Shown: positions 2,377 to 11,572 of the stretch, piece after piece
How positions within the stretch are numbered: position 1 is the stretch's first letter
Layout: each line of letters begins with the position of its first letter
Virus record (IMG/VR): IMGVR_UViG_3300033145_000771
Span: 1-56,094 of that record
Direction: 5' to 3' (one strand)
Source: a virus
Length of the DNA stretch: 56,094 nucleotides
Notes under the pieces: model-generated
Seen by the model: only the letters and a program-made list of their open reading frames with translations
The model's database searches: none
Told to the model about the DNA's origin: nothing
Program-made: the position numbers and the translations under genes

Positions 2377-3354
2377 CTAATCTGTTCTTGCGTAACCTGC
2401 CATTGAATAACCTGTCAACTTGCCCTTCTTGATCGCTTTCCAGATCTTGTTGTCAAGTATTCTGGTAACTAATACCCATGAGCCTTTCTTGACCGACTTT
2501 CCTTCGATCACAAAGTCTACAGGAGCAAGATAGTTCTCCAGTATTCGTACCTTAACATTCTTACCTTTGTGCATCACCTTGAAGGTTTGTACTTTTTCCA
2601 TAAACTGATACGCAGCTTTACGGATTTCCTCTGCATTCGCTTCGTCGCCTTGACTGTCTTCTTCATCCGGCTCGTACACAATACCGTAGACAATGCGCTC
2701 CTCTTTCTTAGTAGCTTTAAGAAGAGGTATAAAAGACACTTCTTTCTCAAACATCGGCTTACCGAGTTTGGAAGAACTTTCTACTTTTGGCATTTCTACC
2801 TTCTCTACTTTACAAGCTGGACGCAAAACCTTATCGAACAATGGAATGCAGTCACCACTAAAATCGGTCGTATAGACAAACACACAAGGCTTATCAAGCT
2901 GTTCACCAAGCATCTTGGTAATCGATTCTTCTAAAACCTCGTTTGGCTCGTCTTCATTAGACCATATAACAACCTCTACATCGTCGTTCTCCGCGGTAGC
3001 GAAATCTTCTTTGATAAGCACGGCCACTTTATCTAAGACAATTGGTTTGAATTGAGCAATATCTAAACCGACTCTCTTTATCTCCATCGCTTTTTTGAAT
3101 GCCTGCCGATCGATTGGCTCAGTGCTGTTCTCTAAATCTCGATTACGCATTACTTTCAACAGCATTCTGTATTTCGCTATAACGTCATTACGGTTAAGAC
3201 TTCCAACAACAATATCTTCGCTCTTCTCAAAGTGTTTGTTCCATAGGCCCATGAATCTCAATTTAAGCACATGCAACTCTCTGTCAGAAGCTTTGTTCAA
3301 CTGTTCATGTTCCAAGTCTTCTATACGTAATTTAATCTTATCGAACATATTCAT
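2377..3354 (-). CDS. XkdF-like prohead protease
   Basis: A 325-aa protein whose C-terminal half (about 215-325) carries the XkdF-type pattern: RIVYGIVYEPDEEDSQGD, EIRKAAYQFMEK, a VRILENYLAPVDF strand, then GSWVLVTRI and the closing KLTGYSMAGYA. XkdF-family proteins are putative serine proteases of phage heads. The N-terminal half is a helical extension of unknown role. The start codon overlaps the stop of the MuF-like gene (TAATG), which suggests coupled translation. It precedes the scaffold-like and capsid genes, the expected position for a maturation protease. The catalytic residues cannot be fixed from sequence alone. Confidence 0.7.
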   Translation of the reverse strand: MNMFDKIKLRIEDLEHEQLNKASDRELHVLKLRFMGLWNKHFEKSEDIVVGSLNRNDVIAKYRMLLKVMRNRDLENSTEPIDRQAFKKAMEIKRVGLDIAQFKPIVLDKVAVLIKEDFATAENDDVEVVIWSNEDEPNEVLEESITKMLGEQLDKPCVFVYTTDFSGDCIPLFDKVLRPACKVEKVEMPKVESSSKLGKPMFEKEVSFIPLLKATKKEERIVYGIVYEPDEEDSQGDEANAEEIRKAAYQFMEKVQTFKVMHKGKNVKVRILENYLAPVDFVIEGKSVKKGSWVLVTRILDNKIWKAIKKGKLTGYSMAGYARTD

Positions 3355-5279
3355 TATCCTTTGATTTTTTGGTTTGGAACTCTATGTCTAACTTTCGGCT
3401 TTGCTACAACAGGCTTCGTAGGCTTAACCGTAGGTATCTTCCCAACAGGAGGTTTACCACTAAGCCCTCCTTTGTGACCAAGCTTGCGTAGAGCACGGCT
3501 GATCTTGCTTGATTCGGCAGGACCTGCCTCCTCTAATTTATTGAGCAGACTCTGCACTTGTCCATCATGCAGTCTATCCGGCATAATACACGATGCGTTT
3601 GCCACTTCTCCCGGAGACCCCTGGCAGGGAGGTAAATCATTAACAACGGGCAGCATGGCACATCGGCAATTATGACTTGCAATTCCATTAGCAATATAGT
3701 ATGATTCGGTTGTTTCTAAATTGTAAACATAATTACTGAAATTAAAGGAGTTGATATGTACAACCGAATCGACAAAGAAATCGTTACACAAATTGTCAAT
3801 TTGTACGTTTCCGGATGGTCCGAAAATAGTGTTGCTCTGCATTTTGGATATAGCAGACGCTGTATTCGCAAACGTCTTTTGGATTCCGGTATTCATATCA
3901 GGAACCAAAGCGAGGCCGAAGCACTCAAATGGTCGCAAATGAGTCTTGAGCAACGAAAGGAACAAATTAAAGCTGCTCATGATGCGGCTAAGGGTCGGAC
4001 TGTAAGCTGGTCTACCAAATGCAAACATGCAAAAACGGTCGAAAAGAGACCAAGCAATGTCTCTGAATACGAGATTGTTGTTCAACGAAAGCTGTTTGTT
4101 AGAGGCATTCCGACCATCGCTCAGAAGGCTATCGGTGCCTATAATTGCGATATTGCTGCCAGTCCCGTCATAGTGGAAGTCTGGGGCGGAAACTGGCACT
4201 TCTTTGGTGATCACGCCCGGCGATGCGAAGAACGACTCAGCTATATCCTCAATTGTGGTTGGTTTGTTTATATCCTGCCAATCACTAAAAGATTCCCCCT
4301 GACGGAGGCCATGGCTGATAACTTGGCTTCCTATATCAAGCGAATTCGCAGGGACAAACCCTCTATTCGAGAGTATAGGATGGTTTGGTGTGGCTCTGAT
4401 TATACGACCAGTGGCTGTCTTGATAATATGAATTTTCCCCTTGTACCAACGTTTACTGGCCGCCGTAATCCTGCCTCTGGGAGATATGAGAGAATCGCCC
4501 GGTAGGCAATTTGGGTGGACAGGTATTATCCCTTTTGCCTCCGCTGCGGAATATCTTGTTTCATCCAAACCTAAACAATCGCCACAAGCACCCGGAGAAG
4601 CTGAGAATTCAACTTCAGTGACTCCCACATCTTCTAAGCCTTGTACATAGCCTATATTCTGGGCACGGGCCGTTTCGGTCCGGGCTATGGTAGCTGCACG
4701 CCTTCGGTGGGTCTTGCCGGCATATCGCTGGACCTTCTTATTAATATCGGCCGGCTTTAACTTTGGATACTTTTCTTTGTTCTCAAGAAGCCTGCGATAA
4801 TTGATAATCGACTGCGTTTGATTCTCTGTCAAGCCTACTAAGGGACGGAGTTCGCGGGCAATTTTCGGCATTCCCCGGCCTTCCTTTATCCCGGTTTTAA
4901 TGTAGGTACGAATGCCCATCTTCGTTTTCTTCGTGACTTCTCGTACCAATTCAGCGGTAAATTTTTCAGCAGCAGTAACTGCATTGACATTAAGTACGTC
5001 AAAAGCACCCTTTACCTGAAGTAACTTATAGGCATTATTTCCGCCTGTCTGCATGATTTTTAATGTAGCGGGTTTAAGCATCTCCCGTCCACGTTCCTCG
5101 ATGAAACCCCAATCGGATAACTCGGATGTAATATCCTTAATAAATTTATGTGTTAAGTCGTGACGGATCTGCTTATGGGCAAAATAAAACCAACTACGCA
5201 CAGCAATTAGCATAGTATTCTTATTCCTGCCTACTAAGCTGCTTAAATCACTCTGAATTGTCTTAGCTATAGTAATCAC
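3354..5279 (-). CDS. MuF/SPP1 gp7-like head protein interrupted by an intein
   Basis: A 641-aa precursor. Residues 1-257 and 538-641 form a 361-aa extein with the head-morphogenesis signature RTETARAQNIGY, then EFSASPGACGDCLGLDETRY and GIIPVHPN|CRCAMLPVV, where the HPNCRC motif is restored by splicing. Family members are minor head proteins near the portal that affect DNA delivery or head assembly. Residues 258-537 are an intein (separate entry), inserted before the first Cys of CRC in the most conserved part of the domain. The C-terminal tail is basic and Pro/Lys-rich. It starts four bases inside the end of the preceding gene, as expected in a tightly packed head operon. Confidence 0.88.
   Translation of the reverse strand: MITIAKTIQSDLSSLVGRNKNTMLIAVRSWFYFAHKQIRHDLTHKFIKDITSELSDWGFIEERGREMLKPATLKIMQTGGNNAYKLLQVKGAFDVLNVNAVTAAEKFTAELVREVTKKTKMGIRTYIKTGIKEGRGMPKIARELRPLVGLTENQTQSIINYRRLLENKEKYPKLKPADINKKVQRYAGKTHRRRAATIARTETARAQNIGYVQGLEDVGVTEVEFSASPGACGDCLGLDETRYSAAEAKGIIPVHPNCLPGDSLISPRGRITAASKRWYKGKIHIIKTATGRIIRATPNHPILSNRGFVPANSLDIGSQVISHGLRQGESFSDWQDINKPTTIEDIAESFFASPGVITKEVPVSAPDFHYDGTGSNIAIIGTDSLLSDGRNASNKQLSLNNNLVFRDIAWSLFDRFCMFAFGRPAYSPTLSRIMSSFNLFLSLLKTHLRPFECFGLALVPDMNTGIQKTFANTASAISKMQSNTIFGPSGNVQIDNLCNDFFVDSVVHINSFNFSNYVYNLETTESYYIANGIASHNCRCAMLPVVNDLPPCQGSPGEVANASCIMPDRLHDGQVQSLLNKLEEAGPAESSKISRALRKLGHKGGLSGKPPVGKIPTVKPTKPVVAKPKVRHRVPNQKIKG
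3677..3705 (+). promoter_or_regulatory. Candidate sigma70 promoter for the antisense endonuclease in intein 1
   Basis: TTGCAA at 3677-3682 and TATGAT at 3700-3705 are separated by exactly 17 bp. They lie inside the intein's C-terminal coding region and point toward the endonuclease start at 3756. An AAAGGAG ribosome site follows at 3744-3750. Based on consensus match and position only. Confidence 0.55.
3756..4505 (+). CDS. Vsr/EDxHD-like homing endonuclease, antisense inside intein 1
   Basis: A 249-aa protein read on the plus strand entirely within intein 1, in register with the intein codons. A helix-turn-helix lies at the N-terminus (about 17-46, SENSVALHFGYSRRCIRKRLL). The core at about 100-165 has SEYEIVVQRKL, then YNCDIAASPVIVEVWGGNWH, FGDHARRCEERLSYIL and GWFVYIL. 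This fits the Vsr-fold/EDxHD pattern of an acidic strand pair, WH, a conserved Asp/Arg helix and GW. AAAGGAG at 3744-3750 precedes the ATG. Its TAG stop is the complement of the CTA Leu codon that is the second codon of the intein. The last 40 or so residues lie opposite the N-terminal splicing motifs and may be a fortuitous extension. It presumably drives intein homing. Confidence 0.85.
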   Translation: MYNRIDKEIVTQIVNLYVSGWSENSVALHFGYSRRCIRKRLLDSGIHIRNQSEAEALKWSQMSLEQRKEQIKAAHDAAKGRTVSWSTKCKHAKTVEKRPSNVSEYEIVVQRKLFVRGIPTIAQKAIGAYNCDIAASPVIVEVWGGNWHFFGDHARRCEERLSYILNCGWFVYILPITKRFPLTEAMADNLASYIKRIRRDKPSIREYRMVWCGSDYTTSGCLDNMNFPLVPTFTGRRNPASGRYERIAR

Positions 5280-5521
5280 CGGCTTATAATTACCCCCTGA
5301 CGAATCAGTTTATTAAAATTATAAGCTTCAATTCCTTCAACAACTACACTCTGCACTGCCCGTTCAAACTGTTGCTGCTCAAGCTCTTTAGCCCGGGCAA
5401 CTCGCTTATTGGCAGGTTTGCATTTGTGCATCTTTTTCTTCTCTTCAAATTCTGCAAGACAAGCTGCCTCGAATTCTTCGCCACAATCACTACAAACAAA
5501 AGTTTCGATTTTTACGGTCAT
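5276..5521 (-). CDS. Small protein with Cys pairs, unknown function
   Basis: An 81-aa protein. The N-terminus has CSDCGEEFEAAC and a later HKC, suggesting a zinc-binding knuckle, followed by a charged helical segment (KRVARAKELEQQQFE). It overlaps both neighbours by a few bases, so it is translationally coupled in the head operon between the exported protein and the MuF-like protein. I do not recognise a family. Confidence 0.7.
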   Translation of the reverse strand: MTVKIETFVCSDCGEEFEAACLAEFEEKKKMHKCKPANKRVARAKELEQQQFERAVQSVVVEGIEAYNFNKLIRQGVIISR

Positions 5522-5660
5522 GTTCGGCTTTAGCCTCTTTTATACTTGCTTCTTCATCGAAAAATTTCACAGTCTTTACTCTGTCTTTTCTGAAGTTGAC
5601 AGTTCGTTCACAAAGATACGTTTGAGCTACTTTCACTCCACTTCTATCAGTATCAGACAT
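5490..5660 (-). CDS. Small 56-aa protein in the head operon
   Basis: The ATG at 5660 follows GGGGAATAG and comes directly after the stop of the 200-aa gene. The product begins MSDTDRSGVKVAQ and is charged (RKDRVKTVKFFDEEASIKEAK). It ends inside the start region of the next gene in another frame. Without it there would be a 140-base gap in an otherwise gapless operon. Function unknown. Confidence 0.6.
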   Translation of the reverse strand: MSDTDRSGVKVAQTYLCERTVNFRKDRVKTVKFFDEEASIKEAKAEHDRKNRNFCL

Positions 5661-6263
5661 CTATTCCCCAAAATCAGTCGATGGAAAGAACGCGCCGTCT
5701 GCCAATCTCCCAGTGCGTAATGATTTAGTAGGCAATGTGACCCTCTGCCTGTTTTTCACAGCCTGAACCCACACACGTTGCGCTCCTTTGGAATAGGCAT
5801 CAGTAAGAACCGGAGGTTCGGCTGGATACAATATTGGCGGACTATCAGTAACAGCTAAAACTAAAAGTGTTCGGCTATCACTTAAACCGATAATATTCGT
5901 AGCAGTCAAATTCAAATAATGAACGCCAACTACTGGTGCCATAAAAATGAAGTCAAAGTGTTGGCTCCATCCGCCTCCCAACTCCTTGACTTTATCTCCT
6001 TTGGTTACTGTTATTCCTTCCATGCCGGTAATAGTCAACTCTGTATCAAGCCCCCATTCGTTCCAAGCCGCCACATGATACACACTTGAAATATTTGGCC
6101 CGGTAATCGTCCACGCCATTACATCGCTATCGCAACAATTGACGTCATATTCAAACGGAACGTCGTATGGAATCGGAGGTCGTTCAATAGCTCCAGCTAA
6201 ATTTACCAGTCCATACATTAGCATGAATATAACAAAAGCAATCAACCAGATGTACAACTTCAT
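5661..6263 (-). CDS. Exported or membrane-anchored Ig-like protein in the head module
   Basis: A 200-aa protein with an N-terminal hydrophobic segment (residues 4-26, LYIWLIAFVIFMLMYGLVNLAGA), which could be a signal peptide or membrane anchor. The middle (about 45-140) alternates beta-type stretches such as WTITGPNISSVYHVAAWNEWG and VGVHYLNLTATNIIGLSDS, suggesting an Ig-like fold. It starts four bases before the end of the portal gene and has a GGAG ribosome site. A secreted protein between portal and head genes is unusual; superinfection exclusion or surface modification is possible but not shown. Confidence 0.7.
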   Translation of the reverse strand: MKLYIWLIAFVIFMLMYGLVNLAGAIERPPIPYDVPFEYDVNCCDSDVMAWTITGPNISSVYHVAAWNEWGLDTELTITGMEGITVTKGDKVKELGGGWSQHFDFIFMAPVVGVHYLNLTATNIIGLSDSRTLLVLAVTDSPPILYPAEPPVLTDAYSKGAQRVWVQAVKNRQRVTLPTKSLRTGRLADGAFFPSTDFGE

Positions 6264-7621
6264 TCTATTTCTCCTTCCAAAAATACTTCTTCTGCTTTGC
6301 TTAACAATTCGTCCGGTTCTCCCACTTCAACAAAGGCAGAACCTATGTAAAATTTATCGCCTTCTGGATATCCTTTTCCTATGCCTAAATCTCTTCGTGC
6401 TTCATTCGGTGTTTCAATACCATGCTCAACTAAGGAATTATGTTGTGTTACCTCAGCATCGTAGTTGCGGCAATCTATATCATTGAATTTGAACTCATAA
6501 ATTTCCGATTGCAATAGTTTATCGTTTATAATTTCTTCGAGGTCCAACTGCAATGGCTCAATTACGCTTTGCACATAGATCTTTGTCGCCTCAGATGCAA
6601 CATTACCACCTAACTTGCCTATTACTCTAACCCCTATTCTTTCAGGCGGCATAGAATATGCGATCATAATATTGTTCCGGCGCTCCTGTTCGTACAGCTT
6701 AAAACTACCTTCTTTTGGATTTCCTACGAGAGGTGTGTATATGAACTTGCATCCATCCGGTTGTTTAACGACCATAGTGCTATGAGCATTTTCTGTTCCT
6801 CGAAGTCTATTATTAACAAATTGCTTTACTTGCTTATCAGATCCTTCTTCCCACTCTCCTTCAAGAACAATAATAGCAGCAGGGATGCCATAATTCTGAA
6901 AGAACGCTAAGTTATAATCTCGTTGACTGATTGCTCCAATCACATCTCCAATAGCAGGAAGCACGTCTGGGACACCGTAGTAATCCGAACGAGGGTAGTA
7001 ATTCTTATGAAAGATTAATTCGTTAGCGGCATTTGATTTAGTTTTGCTTTCTCTTCCGTCCTTCGCTGTAATATCTTTTTCGTAGCCGAACTTTTTGAAC
7101 CATACCTTTTTGGTGTCCCGAATCTGGCAGTATTTGTTTTTCTCTCGATGGACTTTTATAGTATAAGCAGGTACATGATAAATTTCCGCTACATGCTCTT
7201 TATCTTTAGCGCGAATAACTTCTAAACCGAACCATCCGATTGAGCCCCAATCAATAAGCAGCTCCTTCAATACGGCACGAAAAGAACAACCTGGATTAGG
7301 GTGTTCTAAGAATGCTTGAATCCTTTCGAGTTCTGTTTTGTCATCCTTCTTATCTGTTCGAAGTTGCAGTGACCAACCAAGTCCTGCTACGTCGATTGCA
7401 ATCTGCTTAACACAACGAGCGAAAGTAACGTTGGACTCAAGCAACACTAAGAACGCTGCAGGAGAATACGGAGGTTCAACTAAGCCTGCCTGAGTCAAAA
7501 ACTGTTGGTTTTGCTTAAGCTGCTTGCTGCTCTCTTTCTTTGCTTTGGCCAATAGATCGTAAGCGTAAATACCTTTAGTTGTCTGAACCAATACGTTGCC
7601 TTTTTTCTTTTCCTCAGCCAT
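6260..7621 (-). CDS. Portal protein
   Basis: A 453-aa protein matching phage portals of the HK97/SPP1 type: an N-terminal segment leading to PPYSPAAFLVLLESNVTFARCVKQIAIDVAGLGW, then PGCSFRAVLKELLIDWGSIGWFGLEVIR, YHVPAYTIKVHREK and a central YYPRSDYYGVPDVLPAIGDVIGAI (stem/clip region), followed by PPERIGV. Twelve copies normally form the DNA channel at the head vertex. It overlaps its neighbours at ATGA-type junctions and lies between the terminase genes and the MuF-like head protein, the classic order. Confidence 0.9.
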   Translation of the reverse strand: MAEEKKKGNVLVQTTKGIYAYDLLAKAKKESSKQLKQNQQFLTQAGLVEPPYSPAAFLVLLESNVTFARCVKQIAIDVAGLGWSLQLRTDKKDDKTELERIQAFLEHPNPGCSFRAVLKELLIDWGSIGWFGLEVIRAKDKEHVAEIYHVPAYTIKVHREKNKYCQIRDTKKVWFKKFGYEKDITAKDGRESKTKSNAANELIFHKNYYPRSDYYGVPDVLPAIGDVIGAISQRDYNLAFFQNYGIPAAIIVLEGEWEEGSDKQVKQFVNNRLRGTENAHSTMVVKQPDGCKFIYTPLVGNPKEGSFKLYEQERRNNIMIAYSMPPERIGVRVIGKLGGNVASEATKIYVQSVIEPLQLDLEEIINDKLLQSEIYEFKFNDIDCRNYDAEVTQHNSLVEHGIETPNEARRDLGIGKGYPEGDKFYIGSAFVEVGEPDELLSKAEEVFLEGEIE

Positions 7622-7866
7622 TATTTTTTCTCTGATGCTGGTTCGAATCTAATATATGATTGCTTGTGGTCTTTCAACCACTTCTTTGCTTGCTTGATTG
7701 TGAATTTACTTTTCGGAAAACGTATAGATTGCAACGTTGTTGTTGTTTTTCCTTTCAAAGGTCCACCATAGAACATGATACCTTCTTTACTGGTATTGAA
7801 CACACGAACTCGTGCAAACAACCCCGGACTCTTTATTCGGGCACTATGAAAATTTGGATACGGCAT
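7621..7866 (-). CDS. Small basic protein upstream of portal, unknown
   Basis: About 81 aa from the ATG at 7866 (MPYPNFHSARIKSP), which has AAGGAAAG upstream. An in-frame TTG at 7899 is less likely. It is Lys-rich and contains FYGGPLKGKTTTTLQSIRFPK, so it could bind nucleic acid. It ends directly at the portal start. No family recognised. Confidence 0.6.
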   Translation of the reverse strand: MPYPNFHSARIKSPGLFARVRVFNTSKEGIMFYGGPLKGKTTTTLQSIRFPKSKFTIKQAKKWLKDHKQSYIRFEPASEKK

Positions 7867-7907
7867 TTGTTGGCTTCTTTCCTTGATGTAATATTTCAAA
7901 CTCTTGT

Positions 7908-8186
7908 TTAAGGATTTCTTGATATCCTTGTTTTATTATTAGCATCTTCAACAGTAACACCTACTTTCTTCAACCCTTCTCTTATGCGATCGGCAAGCTC
8001 ATATTCGGCTTTCTCTCTCAACACCCGACGAACACTGATGAGAAGATTTTCCATGATAATCATCTTTTCTTTTTCTGATTTTCTTTGCTGTTCGATACGA
8101 CCGAATTCTTCCTCTAAATAATCGAAAAGACCCATCAAGGATTCTACCTTGTACCTCGCCTCTTTTTTGATTTCCTGGAAATCCAT
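7908..8186 (-). CDS. Small coiled-coil protein, unknown
   Basis: A 92-aa protein that is almost entirely charged helix (KVESLMGLFDYLEEEFGRIEQQ and EKEKMIIMENLLISVRRVLREKAEYELADRIREGL), so a coiled coil is predicted. It sits between terL and portal. Head-assembly or terminase-associated roles are possible by position only. Confidence 0.6.
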   Translation of the reverse strand: MDFQEIKKEARYKVESLMGLFDYLEEEFGRIEQQRKSEKEKMIIMENLLISVRRVLREKAEYELADRIREGLKKVGVTVEDANNKTRISRNP

Positions 8187-8204
8187 ATCAAAACTTCTTT
8201 ACGT

Positions 8205-8384
8205 TTAACCGTAATTCTGCCACCAAGTTAACAATCTTTTCAAACGATAAGTATTACGACGTCCCCAAGAGCCTCTCATCTTTTCATTTAGCGACGAATA
8301 AAAGCCGGAGTCTATCTTCGGTTCTTTCGGCTCATCCTCGTATGTCATCTCAGATACACTGTTTGGATAACTTGTAGCACTCAT
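8205..8384 (-). CDS. Small 59-aa protein coupled to terL
   Basis: The ATG at 8384 overlaps the terL stop in an ATGA junction. The product begins MSATSYPNSVSEMTYED and ends with a basic, aromatic tail (RRNTYRLKRLLTWWQNYG). It fills what would otherwise be a 195-base gap. Function unknown. Confidence 0.6.
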   Translation of the reverse strand: MSATSYPNSVSEMTYEDEPKEPKIDSGFYSSLNEKMRGSWGRRNTYRLKRLLTWWQNYG

Positions 8385-11300
8385 GCTGACACCGAACCTT
8401 TCTTTCTTGGTCTGTCTACGGTGTACAATATGTACCGTACAACGTCAAGCGTATGGTCGTTTTTCGCCAAAGGTAAATCTTTAGGATCCCTAGAGGCGGA
8501 GCCCTTTGGGTATTGGTACATGGCCATCTCCCGAGCTGTATTCCGGCAGGACTTAAAGATATATAAGCTCGGCTTCCCATTCGCCTTAACTTTGAGTTTA
8601 CTTTGTACAAGTTCAATACCACGAGCCACATCGTTTCGAGCTATCAGAGTAGGTATGCCGGCTTTGCGAAGCTCGCCTCTGTCCTCAGCATTTTCAGGGT
8701 CTGCGTAAGTTCCTTGATATTTCTCATTAGAACTTCTCGCTTTGATATTAGCAATATGCTCCTGAATGCCGGTTTTGGCTCTGTAATATTCGCGATATAC
8801 ATACCAGTTCTCATCCTTATCCTTAGCAAGCCACAGACAATTGCCACAAACCATCGGCCTGCCTCTACGCCTAACGACTAAAGTATTATACTTAGGAACT
8901 TCAACACAAAATATCATATCGTTATAATCTATTGACATGATTTTCATTTTTTGTACCGCAGCCAACTTAGCTTTGCAAATAGTAAGAATATAATAATCTC
9001 GCATTCCAGAATAACCTGCTGTCTTTGACGTTTTGATAGTCGTAGATTTTCCCAACAAAGCATAAACTTCCTGTAAATCATCTATTAGATTTTTACAAGT
9101 AGAAAAGTGCTGCATTCTATTTCTATCGCTTACTCCATCCCCCATCAAATGTCCTTTGACTAAGTTTTCTAATTCATCCCGACCCCAACTATAAATTTCT
9201 CTTGGAATATTCTTATTCTTATTCGGCGACCATTTTGTATTATTTAAGAACCAACTCCATAAATCTTTGCTTTGAATCCGATAATCTTTTACTCTATTAT
9301 CTGAGATTGCAGTTGTATATTTCCAACCGAGATTATTTAGTATTCTTTCCACTTCCTTACATTTTGTTTTTTGAGCAATTCTTACAAACCAACCGGCTTT
9401 ACCTTTAAGAAGCGATCCGTCAGCAAGCCATAATCCTACAAATTCAGCGAATGCGGTCTTATTTACAGGAGATAGAATGGTCTTAGAACGTTTTCCATGA
9501 GGTACTATAAAATCAACAGTCTTTTTGGCTGATATAGTGTTCCACCCTACAGGTATATCATAACAAGACAATTTTTCAGCAGGTACAAATTTCCATTTCT
9601 TTGGCTTTCTTCTATCTACAACCACCATCTTATGATTGGGCGTTACACAAAAGTTAGCACTTTCAACTCTAGGTGTACTAATTAACATTTTCCCTTTGTA
9701 TCGCTGTTTAATATATTTAACTGGTTTTTGATATTTTATTATTTTTGAAAGAGGATCTATAGTGGCAACTTTTTCTTTTTTATTAAGGTTAGCAAACAAT
9801 TTCCACCCTTCGTTAGTTAATATCTCTGTTTCTTTATCGTAGCAGACGAAAGGATTGGTAAAACCAAAATCAATACCTCGGTAGAGTGTCCAACCATCTG
9901 GAATCCTGAAAGGCTTTATAACATGTATCGAACGGTTGAAGTTTTTATATACAGCGCCATAATAGCTTGCGAACTTACCCTCAATACGAGTAGCCTGCAC
10001 TCCGTCCGGCCACTCAGCAATCATATTATCTATTCGTTGATCCTCTATAAACCCTCCTCGACTCTTCCTGTTATCGTTTAAGTTGAAATGAAATATTTCG
10101 TCTGTTGCGGGTAGTTCCTCTATTCTTTCTTCTAAAAAGGTTTGAGGCATAATAGGTGTCATGCTCCAACTGAGATAACCCTGATAAGTTATCAGTCGTG
10201 CTTGAGTTTCATGTAGTATGCCTTCGAAATCATGGAGACACTGTTCGTCGTAATGAGCAGATTTTATTGCTCTTCCCTGAAACAATGTTCGTCCCTGGTT
10301 GAATGCTTTGAACTCAATGGTATTGCCTGTATTTAAATATATTTTACGAGGCACTTTGTCCTGACCATAACGAATATCAATAATATGATGTTGAGGAATG
10401 AATTTCTGAAGATACTGTTCCCATAGAATATCTCGAACTTGTTCCCAGGTCTCAATTCCTACCCAATGAATTCCTTTAGCTTGCTTAAAAGGATGAATAT
10501 TGAGAGCTAACTGTGCGAGATCCATCATATTGGTATATGTTTTCCCGCTGTTGTGATGAATAACGCCACCTGACAAATAATTGTGATAAATAGGCACATT
10601 AAAATCCCAAATATCATCAAATCTCTTTACATCCAAACTAATTACCGCTATACTGTCATTTGATTTTAATTTAGGAGAATTACATGAAACGTAAGCATCC
10701 TGTTCGTGATCGTGGCCTACCACGGAAATGTTATGATTACCCAGTCGATTCAATCCGCCAATGGATTGCTGAGGGCAAAACTCAGGCATGGATTGGCAGT
10801 AAACTTGGAGTTGATGCAAAGTTAATTCATAAAGTTTGCAAAAAGCATGGCATAAAGTGCCAAAGAACCGGTCCGCGTTCCGGGCCTGAATGCCTATTTT
10901 GGAAAGGAGGTCGAATAATCGATAAAGACGGCTATGTCTCTGTCTATTGTCCGGGGCATCCTTATGCCAAAAAGCCAAACAAGAAGTATGTCCTTGAACA
11001 TCGCTTGATAATGGAACTTTCTCTTGGCCGTTACTTAAAGAGATACGAAATTGTCCATCACAAAAATGGGATAAGAAATGATAACCGTCTTGTAAATCTT
11101 GAGCTTTTTCATTCAAATGCAGAACATCTTCACAAGGAACTAAAGGGTCATTGCCCGAAATGGACGAAGGCTGGAAGAGAAAGGATGTTGGCTGGAGTTG
11201 TGAAATACTGGTCCAATTACAAAAAGAATCTAAAACCAAATGATTCGCCGAGCAAACAATAGATTGCCCATTTGACAGCTTGAGTTCATATAGCTGCGCC

Positions 11301-11572
11301 GGTGTTTTCTTAAATGGCTTATCTGCTTTTGCAATAACCTTCTTTTGTCCATCGAAAGCGTAAACATGAAATGGCTTATCTATGCTGGATACTTCTTTTT
11401 CTATTTTTTCTACAGGATCGTAAATCAATTGTTCTCCGCCTAAACACAAGTTGCCTCCGAACATCCATTGAATAGCGGCCTGCGATTTGAAATAAGCTCG
11501 TTGATCCTCGCTAAGAGGCTTATATAAAGCAATGTGTTTGCCTACTCGCTTTATTTGTTCCACACTAAGCAT
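8381..11572 (-). CDS. terL: Large terminase subunit with two inteins
   Basis: A 1063-aa precursor. Removing residues 43-341 and 577-911 leaves a 429-aa TerL. Intein 2 splits the Walker A motif, which is restored as GGN-L-SGKT. Walker B is SAHYDEQ (about 439-445). The nuclease domain has GIDFGFTNPF (split after V576 by the LAGLIDADG intein), YADPENAEDRGEL and the closing NDHTLDVVRYILY. TerL is the ATP-driven packaging motor and the nuclease that cuts the concatemer, docking on the portal. It starts eight bases inside terS. Both catalytic centres are interrupted, so activity should depend entirely on protein splicing. Confidence 0.93.
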   Translation of the reverse strand: MLSVEQIKRVGKHIALYKPLSEDQRAYFKSQAAIQWMFGGNLCLGGEQLIYDPVEKIEKEVSSIDKPFHVYAFDGQKKVIAKADKPFKKTPAQLYELKLSNGQSIVCSANHLVLDSFCNWTSISQLQPTSFLFQPSSISGNDPLVPCEDVLHLNEKAQDLQDGYHFLSHFCDGQFRISLSNGQEKVPLSSDVQGHTSCLAFWHKDAPDNRQRHSRLYRLFDLLSKIGIQARNADRFFGTLCHAFCKLYELTLHQLQVYCQSMPEFCPQQSIGGLNRLGNHNISVVGHDHEQDAYVSCNSPKLKSNDSIAVISLDVKRFDDIWDFNVPIYHNYLSGGVIHHNSGKTYTNMMDLAQLALNIHPFKQAKGIHWVGIETWEQVRDILWEQYLQKFIPQHHIIDIRYGQDKVPRKIYLNTGNTIEFKAFNQGRTLFQGRAIKSAHYDEQCLHDFEGILHETQARLITYQGYLSWSMTPIMPQTFLEERIEELPATDEIFHFNLNDNRKSRGGFIEDQRIDNMIAEWPDGVQATRIEGKFASYYGAVYKNFNRSIHVIKPFRIPDGWTLYRGIDFGFTNPFVCYDKETEILTNEGWKLFANLNKKEKVATIDPLSKIIKYQKPVKYIKQRYKGKMLISTPRVESANFCVTPNHKMVVVDRRKPKKWKFVPAEKLSCYDIPVGWNTISAKKTVDFIVPHGKRSKTILSPVNKTAFAEFVGLWLADGSLLKGKAGWFVRIAQKTKCKEVERILNNLGWKYTTAISDNRVKDYRIQSKDLWSWFLNNTKWSPNKNKNIPREIYSWGRDELENLVKGHLMGDGVSDRNRMQHFSTCKNLIDDLQEVYALLGKSTTIKTSKTAGYSGMRDYYILTICKAKLAAVQKMKIMSIDYNDMIFCVEVPKYNTLVVRRRGRPMVCGNCLWLAKDKDENWYVYREYYRAKTGIQEHIANIKARSSNEKYQGTYADPENAEDRGELRKAGIPTLIARNDVARGIELVQSKLKVKANGKPSLYIFKSCRNTAREMAMYQYPKGSASRDPKDLPLAKNDHTLDVVRYILYTVDRPRKKGSVSA
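8840..9844 (-). other. Intein 3, LAGLIDADG intein in the TerL nuclease domain
   Basis: Encodes residues 577-911 (335 aa). Block A is CYDKETEILTNEGWK; block B is FCVTPNHKMVVVDRR. The two dodecapeptide motifs are FVGLWLADGSL (711-721) and LVKGHLMGDGVSD (804-816), so this is a conventional intein with a sense-strand LAGLIDADG endonuclease. Blocks F and G are YNDMIFCVEVPKYNTLVV and PMVCGN, ending in Gly910-Asn911 (the usual penultimate His is missing), with Cys912 as +1. It interrupts the nuclease motif after GIDFGFTNPFV. Confidence 0.93.
10626..10654 (+). promoter_or_regulatory. Sigma70-like promoter for the antisense HNH gene in intein 2
   Basis: TTTACA at 10626-10631 and TATACT at 10649-10654, each five of six to consensus, with a 17-bp spacer. 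It is embedded in the sequence encoding the intein's C-terminal splicing region and reads into the HNH gene 30 bases downstream. Confidence 0.65.
10684..11262 (+). CDS. HNH homing endonuclease, antisense inside intein 2
   Basis: A 192-aa protein on the plus strand, opposite intein residues 104-297, the place where a sense-strand homing endonuclease would normally sit. An N-terminal helix-turn-helix is seen (TQAWIGSKLGVDAKLIHKVCKKHG, about 33-58). The nuclease segment is GYVSVYCPGHPYA, VLEHRLIMELSLGRYLKRYEIVHHKNGIRNDNRLVNLELF, with the HH, N and N residues of HNH_3-type enzymes. AGGAG at 10673-10677 precedes the ATG, and a good promoter lies just upstream. It is out of register with the intein codons by one base, unlike the antisense gene in intein 1. 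Confidence 0.9.
   Translation: MKRKHPVRDRGLPRKCYDYPVDSIRQWIAEGKTQAWIGSKLGVDAKLIHKVCKKHGIKCQRTGPRSGPECLFWKGGRIIDKDGYVSVYCPGHPYAKKPNKKYVLEHRLIMELSLGRYLKRYEIVHHKNGIRNDNRLVNLELFHSNAEHLHKELKGHCPKWTKAGRERMLAGVVKYWSNYKKNLKPNDSPSKQ

Follow-up and report, generated by a model that had tools for sequence, protein, structure and literature searches.

Mobile inteins with in-frame LAGLIDADG or HNH domains resemble the two elements described here in their class-1 splicing blocks, their insertion at conserved motifs and their homing-type nuclease. However, the nuclease is here predicted to be a protein in its own right, with a gene that spans nearly all of the intein on the antisense strand and has its own promoter and Shine-Dalgarno (SD) sequence. 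Dassa and colleagues reportedly found, in 2009, fractured genes and split inteins accompanied by a free-standing Vsr-like (EDxHD) endonuclease, the control elements of which are said to have come along with the nuclease gene. In both settings a Vsr-related nuclease is tied to phage inteins, but there it lies between the split intein halves, whereas the present gene overlaps, on the opposite strand, an intein ORF that is unbroken. The genes of the T4 intron nucleases I-TevI, I-TevII and I-TevIII have middle or late promoters and ribosome-binding sites immediately ahead of them, within the intervening element (PMC2988022). This placement is shared by the elements described here; however, the T4 genes lie on the sense strand of RNA introns, and their control involves phage-stage promoters and RNA structure. 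Antisense homing nuclease genes occur in nuclear rDNA group I introns, e.g., I-DsqI (PMC9548176), where the gene is antisense to both element and host gene and is expressed separately, as proposed here. Unlike the present case, these systems are eukaryotic, and the nuclease gene sits in the intron periphery and overlaps no protein reading frame. A search of the open-access literature, the coverage of which leaves out most subscription papers, returned no paper that describes a homing-endonuclease gene antisense to an intein.

The window, i.e., the whole stretch of 56,094 nucleotides analysed here (IMG/VR record IMGVR_UViG_3300033145_000771), carries both elements in minus-strand genes. Intein A (280 aa, 3669-4508, minus strand; Intein_splicing PF14890, E 1.6e-10) interrupts a phage Mu F-like head morphogenesis (minor capsid) gene at 3354-5279 on the same strand (PF04233, E 7e-6, slightly below the curated cut-off; PHROG 'head protein', 6e-43). 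Its boundaries were taken from the translation, which contains C1 LPGDS, block B TPNH, block F YVYNLE and block G SHN followed by a +1 Cys, and which gives HPN-CRC as the rejoined host sequence. Intein B (299 aa, 10550-11446, minus strand; PF14890, E 1.9e-10; boundaries again from the translation) lies at the Walker A motif (GGNL-SGKT) of the terminase large subunit gene, terL (8381-11572, minus strand; PHROG terminase large subunit, E 8e-29 and 2e-16), and contains C1 LGGEQL, block B SANH, IWDFNV and HHN followed by a +1 Ser. Judged from their residues and from PF14890 matches that exceed the cut-off, both are class-1 inteins, with an N-terminal Cys, the block B His, a block F and a C-terminal His-Asn preceding Cys or Ser. 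The terL gene contains a second intein (8840-9844, minus strand; C1 YDKETEIL ... CGN, +1 Cys), in which a LAGLIDADG region lies in frame; of the two terL inteins, one is thus of the antisense-HNH kind and the other conventional.

Each of inteins A and B wholly encloses a plus-strand ORF. ORF A (249 aa, 3756-4505) is codon-aligned with the intein frame (phase 0) and extends from a start slightly sense-upstream of block F to a TAG stop opposite intein codon 2. The TAG lies opposite a Leu codon, CTA (4503-4508), so that the ends of nuclease gene and intein nearly coincide. Profile, structure model and homologues point to an N-terminal HTH followed by a Vsr/EDxHD-like nuclease. The profile of the ORF A family matches the catalytic domain of I-Bth0305I (3r3p; E 2.4e-7), and an AlphaFold (AF2) model built from the window and IMG/VR sequences (pLDDT 85) has 3r3p as its best PDB match (fold match E 9e-4), with the Vsr endonuclease (1vsr) a weak match among the next. 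Among the conserved acidic nuclease residues, D132 and E141 are invariant in two family alignments (A1 and A8) and E106 is invariant in A8. By sequence, predicted fold and conserved residues, ORF A is a putative EDxHD/Vsr-like homing endonuclease. ORF B (192 aa, 10684-11262) stands in relative phase 2 and is a predicted HNH_3 homing-endonuclease-like protein (PF13392, E 1.3e-8, 34.7 bits against a cut-off of 24.8).

In all, ~180 related phage sequences were compared, and in them promoter, ribosome site and start codon of the nuclease gene are conserved within or beside the DNA encoding the splicing machinery. ORF A was matched in 120 records of a phage collection (tblastn), with hosts including Aggregatibacter, Salmonella, Pseudomonas, Klebsiella, Vibrio and Gordonia. 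Loci were gathered by nuclease and not by arrangement, and an overlying ORF had to exceed 250 aa. Family A nucleases are antisense and in phase 0 at 174 of 176 loci and at all 43 further loci (217/219, a few being the same contigs fetched again). In nearly all fetched regions, with locus L027 as the exception, they oppose a long MuF/head-protein ORF, which is annotated as a minor capsid or head protein in most cases, while the nuclease frame is annotated in only two of the fetched records (PK1 and P1068). Family B nucleases are antisense at 100 of 103 homologous loci, all of these in phase 2 and mostly in TerL/P-loop inteins, Pectobacterium phages being among the carriers. Two separate, unrelated nuclease families thus have the same antisense arrangement. 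The constancy of relative phase in very divergent phages (0 in A, 2 in B) suggests that each arrangement arose once and was then inherited. These data also bear on whether the ORFs encode anything. Codon-aligned antisense frames tend to stay open, and most annotators omit these ORFs, as would be expected of mirror-image artefacts of the intein frame; yet the I-Bth0305I match of family A in profile and predicted fold, the HNH_3 identity of ORF B, the phase 2 of family B and the invariant nuclease residues make such an artefact exceedingly improbable. The antisense ORFs are instead, as far as homology can tell, conserved proteins of homing-nuclease families.

We consider it very probable that these are mobile inteins, each with a separate, antisense-encoded homing endonuclease and with transcription and translation signals of its own. 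The nuclease gene would occupy the opposite strand of the intein DNA rather than being fused in frame as LAGLIDADG domains are, and a sigma70-type promoter (extended -10, or -35/-10), an SD and a start codon on the antisense strand of the C-terminal splicing region would travel with the intein. From this promoter, host RNA polymerase would make an mRNA with a short leader, independently of the head or terminase transcript; the SD would drive translation, and the nuclease would cut intein-free alleles, the repair of which would copy the intein in. Transcription, translation, cutting and homing are what we infer from the DNA, as are early timing and any interference between the strands.

In the window, promoter A (TTGCAA-17-TATGAT; 3677-3705, plus strand; hexamers at 3677-3682 and 3700-3705) lies opposite block G/F residues, 50 bp before the ATG of ORF A, which is preceded by the SD AAAGGAG (3744-3750) with a 5-nt spacer (SD and ATG together 3744-3758). 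Promoter B (TTTACA-17-TATACT; 10626-10654, plus strand; hexamers at 10626-10631 and 10649-10654) lies 29 bp before the ATG of ORF B, with the SD TAGGAG (10672-10677) and a 6-nt spacer (together 10672-10686). A preliminary description of this DNA had called both 17-bp-spacer promoters at these positions, each accompanied by an SD, and had them directed into the nuclease genes within the inteins, and both points are borne out. It had also placed all of these signals inside the coding sequence of the splicing blocks, which is correct for promoter A; promoter B merely adjoins block F (~10550-10612) on its sense-upstream side, and both SD/ATG pairs fall slightly outside block F.

Such sites carry little weight by themselves. 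The window promoters score 9/12 and 10/12 against consensus, and bare consensus matches occur at chance density, with 38 promoter-like sites in 16 kb against 36.5 +/- 5.2 in shuffled sequences. When the sense protein was held constant, site A alone gave p = 0.15 for the promoter, because the Tyr-rich block F yields such hexamers easily, and p = 0.05 for the SD; site B alone gave p = 0.033-0.047 for the promoter and p = 0.24 for the SD. These values raise the question of whether hexamers and SD are incidental, i.e., reverse complements of the conserved Tyr-, Asn- and Ile-rich residues of blocks F and G and devoid of promoter function; block F 'VYNLE' alone readily yields an antisense GAG GTT.

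Synonymous codon choice across the families distinguishes the two readings. Family A aligns without gaps over the final 22 residues, block F through the +1 residue. In its most frequent layout, the sense residues H-V-Y-N-L-E correspond to antisense TTC-GAG-GTT-ATA-AAC-ATG, comprising SD, spacer and start codon, and G-I-I-[TA] corresponds to TGY-TAT-AAT, an extended -10; this -10, TGNTATAAT, lies opposite block G. Under the null model, sense amino acids were kept and codons redrawn from the usage of each phage. At fixed positions in 112 non-redundant family A loci, TAnnnT opposite codons idx17/16 was observed 51 times against 9.3 expected (z 15), and the extended form TGN+TAnnnT 31 times against 1.6. 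Similarly, the SD was present at 77 loci (26.3 expected) and the ATG, which requires His CAT over CAC, at 67 (34.4 expected), while the TGN/TAnnnT -10, SD and ATG occurred all together at 24 loci, for which 0.6 were expected. Where Ile at the -10 site is replaced by Val or Leu, the codons GTA and CTA/TTA are often chosen, giving TACAAT, TAGAAT or TAAAAT. Under the same null, the neighbouring family A codons idx19-21 show no bias. The uncommon codons (ATA, GTA, CTA/TTA) and the preference for CAT thus fall exactly at TAnnnT, TG and ATG, which already contradicts the incidental origin of these signals at family level and leaves it improbable overall.

A position-free score, which accepted an extended -10 or a -35/-10 pair 18-60 bp before the start, gave the same picture. 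Its promoter weights are E. coli-like and may not fit the RNA polymerase of this phage's host; with them, family A (132 loci) scored 9.05 against 5.93 expected (z 19.4) and family B (53 loci) 7.54 against 5.70 (z 8.7), z-scores that shared ancestry inflates. With one sequence per 50% protein identity cluster, z was 13 in family A (67 clusters) and, more weakly, 2.9 in family B (8 clusters). The SD was over-represented as well (z 10.4 in family A, 5.4 in family B), somewhat favoured by the choice of homologue start codons partly by SD, a bias from which the fixed-position test is free. A family-wide -35 was not required in scoring because the commonest layout puts it in the extein and because an extended -10 can replace it. 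The extended -10 is well suited to a mobile element for the same reason, as a -35 in that layout would lie beyond the element, within the host gene. Controls came from the host codons flanking the intein, from adjacent intein codons and from inteins with an in-frame LAGLIDADG domain; intein codons outside the nuclease overlap could not serve, since hardly any of the intein is left uncovered by the antisense ORF. The in-frame LAGLIDADG inteins, a small set of 8, showed no comparable bias (promoter z -1.5, SD z -0.9), which again argues against incidental matches.

The position of the promoter is not the same throughout. An Aaphi23/Vibrio-like clade has TTGACA-18-TATAAT at another, third position. 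The full-consensus TTGACA-18-TATAAT is found antisense inside the C-terminal coding sequence of the intein at loci L166 and L172. That layouts vary while a promoter is kept before the antisense start argues for function. Some loci, e.g., L193 and L196, have no recognisable promoter or SD, and several free-standing T4 nucleases are promoter-less cassettes (PMC2988022), so that a real nuclease might instead depend on plus-strand promoters outside the intein that read through into it, with little role for the internal sites. We regard this as unlikely, given the synonymous-site conservation of the -10 elements within the intein and the mostly opposite direction of the flanking genes in the phage regions that were fetched.

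The window sites gain from comparison with their closest relatives. Intein A and the window's five nearest homologues (L002, L102, L131, L157 and L174) form a small clade in which the usual start is lost (His to Tyr or Phe), as is the usual -10 (TGCAAT). All of these loci begin 27 nt further on, the position of the ORF A start relative to the usual family A start, and have in common an SD there and TTGCAA-17-TAnGAT 50 bp before the start. SD A is supported at clade level (p 0.001), promoter A only when slightly wider relatives are included (10 loci, p = 0.003), some of which have the standard layout. Promoter A is a derived version of the standard family A promoter, and the weaker evidence of the two, being alone no better than chance given the sense protein. 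Promoter B resembles TTGACA-17-TATACT (L183) and TTGGCA-17-TATACT (L201), and in its clade of 21 loci the promoter (p = 0.001) and the SD (p = 0.003) are both supported. A hand-picked set of family B loci with TATACT was discarded as circular, and clades defined by identity were used instead. At family and clade level, therefore, a predicted sigma70-type promoter is conserved beyond what protein coding demands, although site A of the window is not significant alone. The central proposal of the preliminary description, that the C-terminal splicing region carries an antisense sigma70-type promoter, SD and start which make the nuclease independent of the host-gene transcript, is accordingly upheld by homology, fixed architecture, synonymous-site conservation and recurrence in two unrelated families. 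Its suggestion that the nuclease would be made early is plausible given a promoter of the host-RNAP type, and convergent transcription from the two strands might, as it also held, interfere.

If this reading is true, many phage mini-inteins that appear to lack an endonuclease are fully equipped mobile elements with a nuclease unannotated on the other strand. The dual coding would be unusually clean, one strand specifying the residues for protein splicing and the other providing promoter, start codon and ribosome site, and synonymous codon choice offers a sequence test for selection on the functions of both strands. A 2004 genome paper (PMC517821) assigned no recognisable endonuclease to the Mu F intein of Methylococcus capsulatus and considered that intein probably immobile, which the antisense arrangement might explain. 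I-TevI represses its own synthesis through an operator that overlaps its promoter and resembles its homing site (PMC2988022). Half of the likely homing site is the intein/extein junction, with which the region slightly upstream of the -10 overlaps, and for this reason a similar control is conceivable here. Tentatively, and with the odds against it, blocks F (HVYNLE) and G (GIIxHN) may be dual-coded, kept partly as the reverse complement of SD-ATG and extended -10, and, after insertion of the intein, the nuclease may act as a repressor of its own promoter.

Two loci show the nuclease gene in other surroundings. In Acinetobacter phage P1068 (L027, 2309-3202), an annotated, intact family A nuclease ORF faces a broken intein frame, and the head gene annotated there stops beside the nuclease ORF; this is possibly a nuclease surviving without a working intein. 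In Pseudoalteromonas phage PHS3 (L279, 1700-3678), the annotation has a family B HNH gene that separates terL from terS and is oriented against them, and the terL call begins after it, so that the locus probably represents an unrecognised antisense intein.
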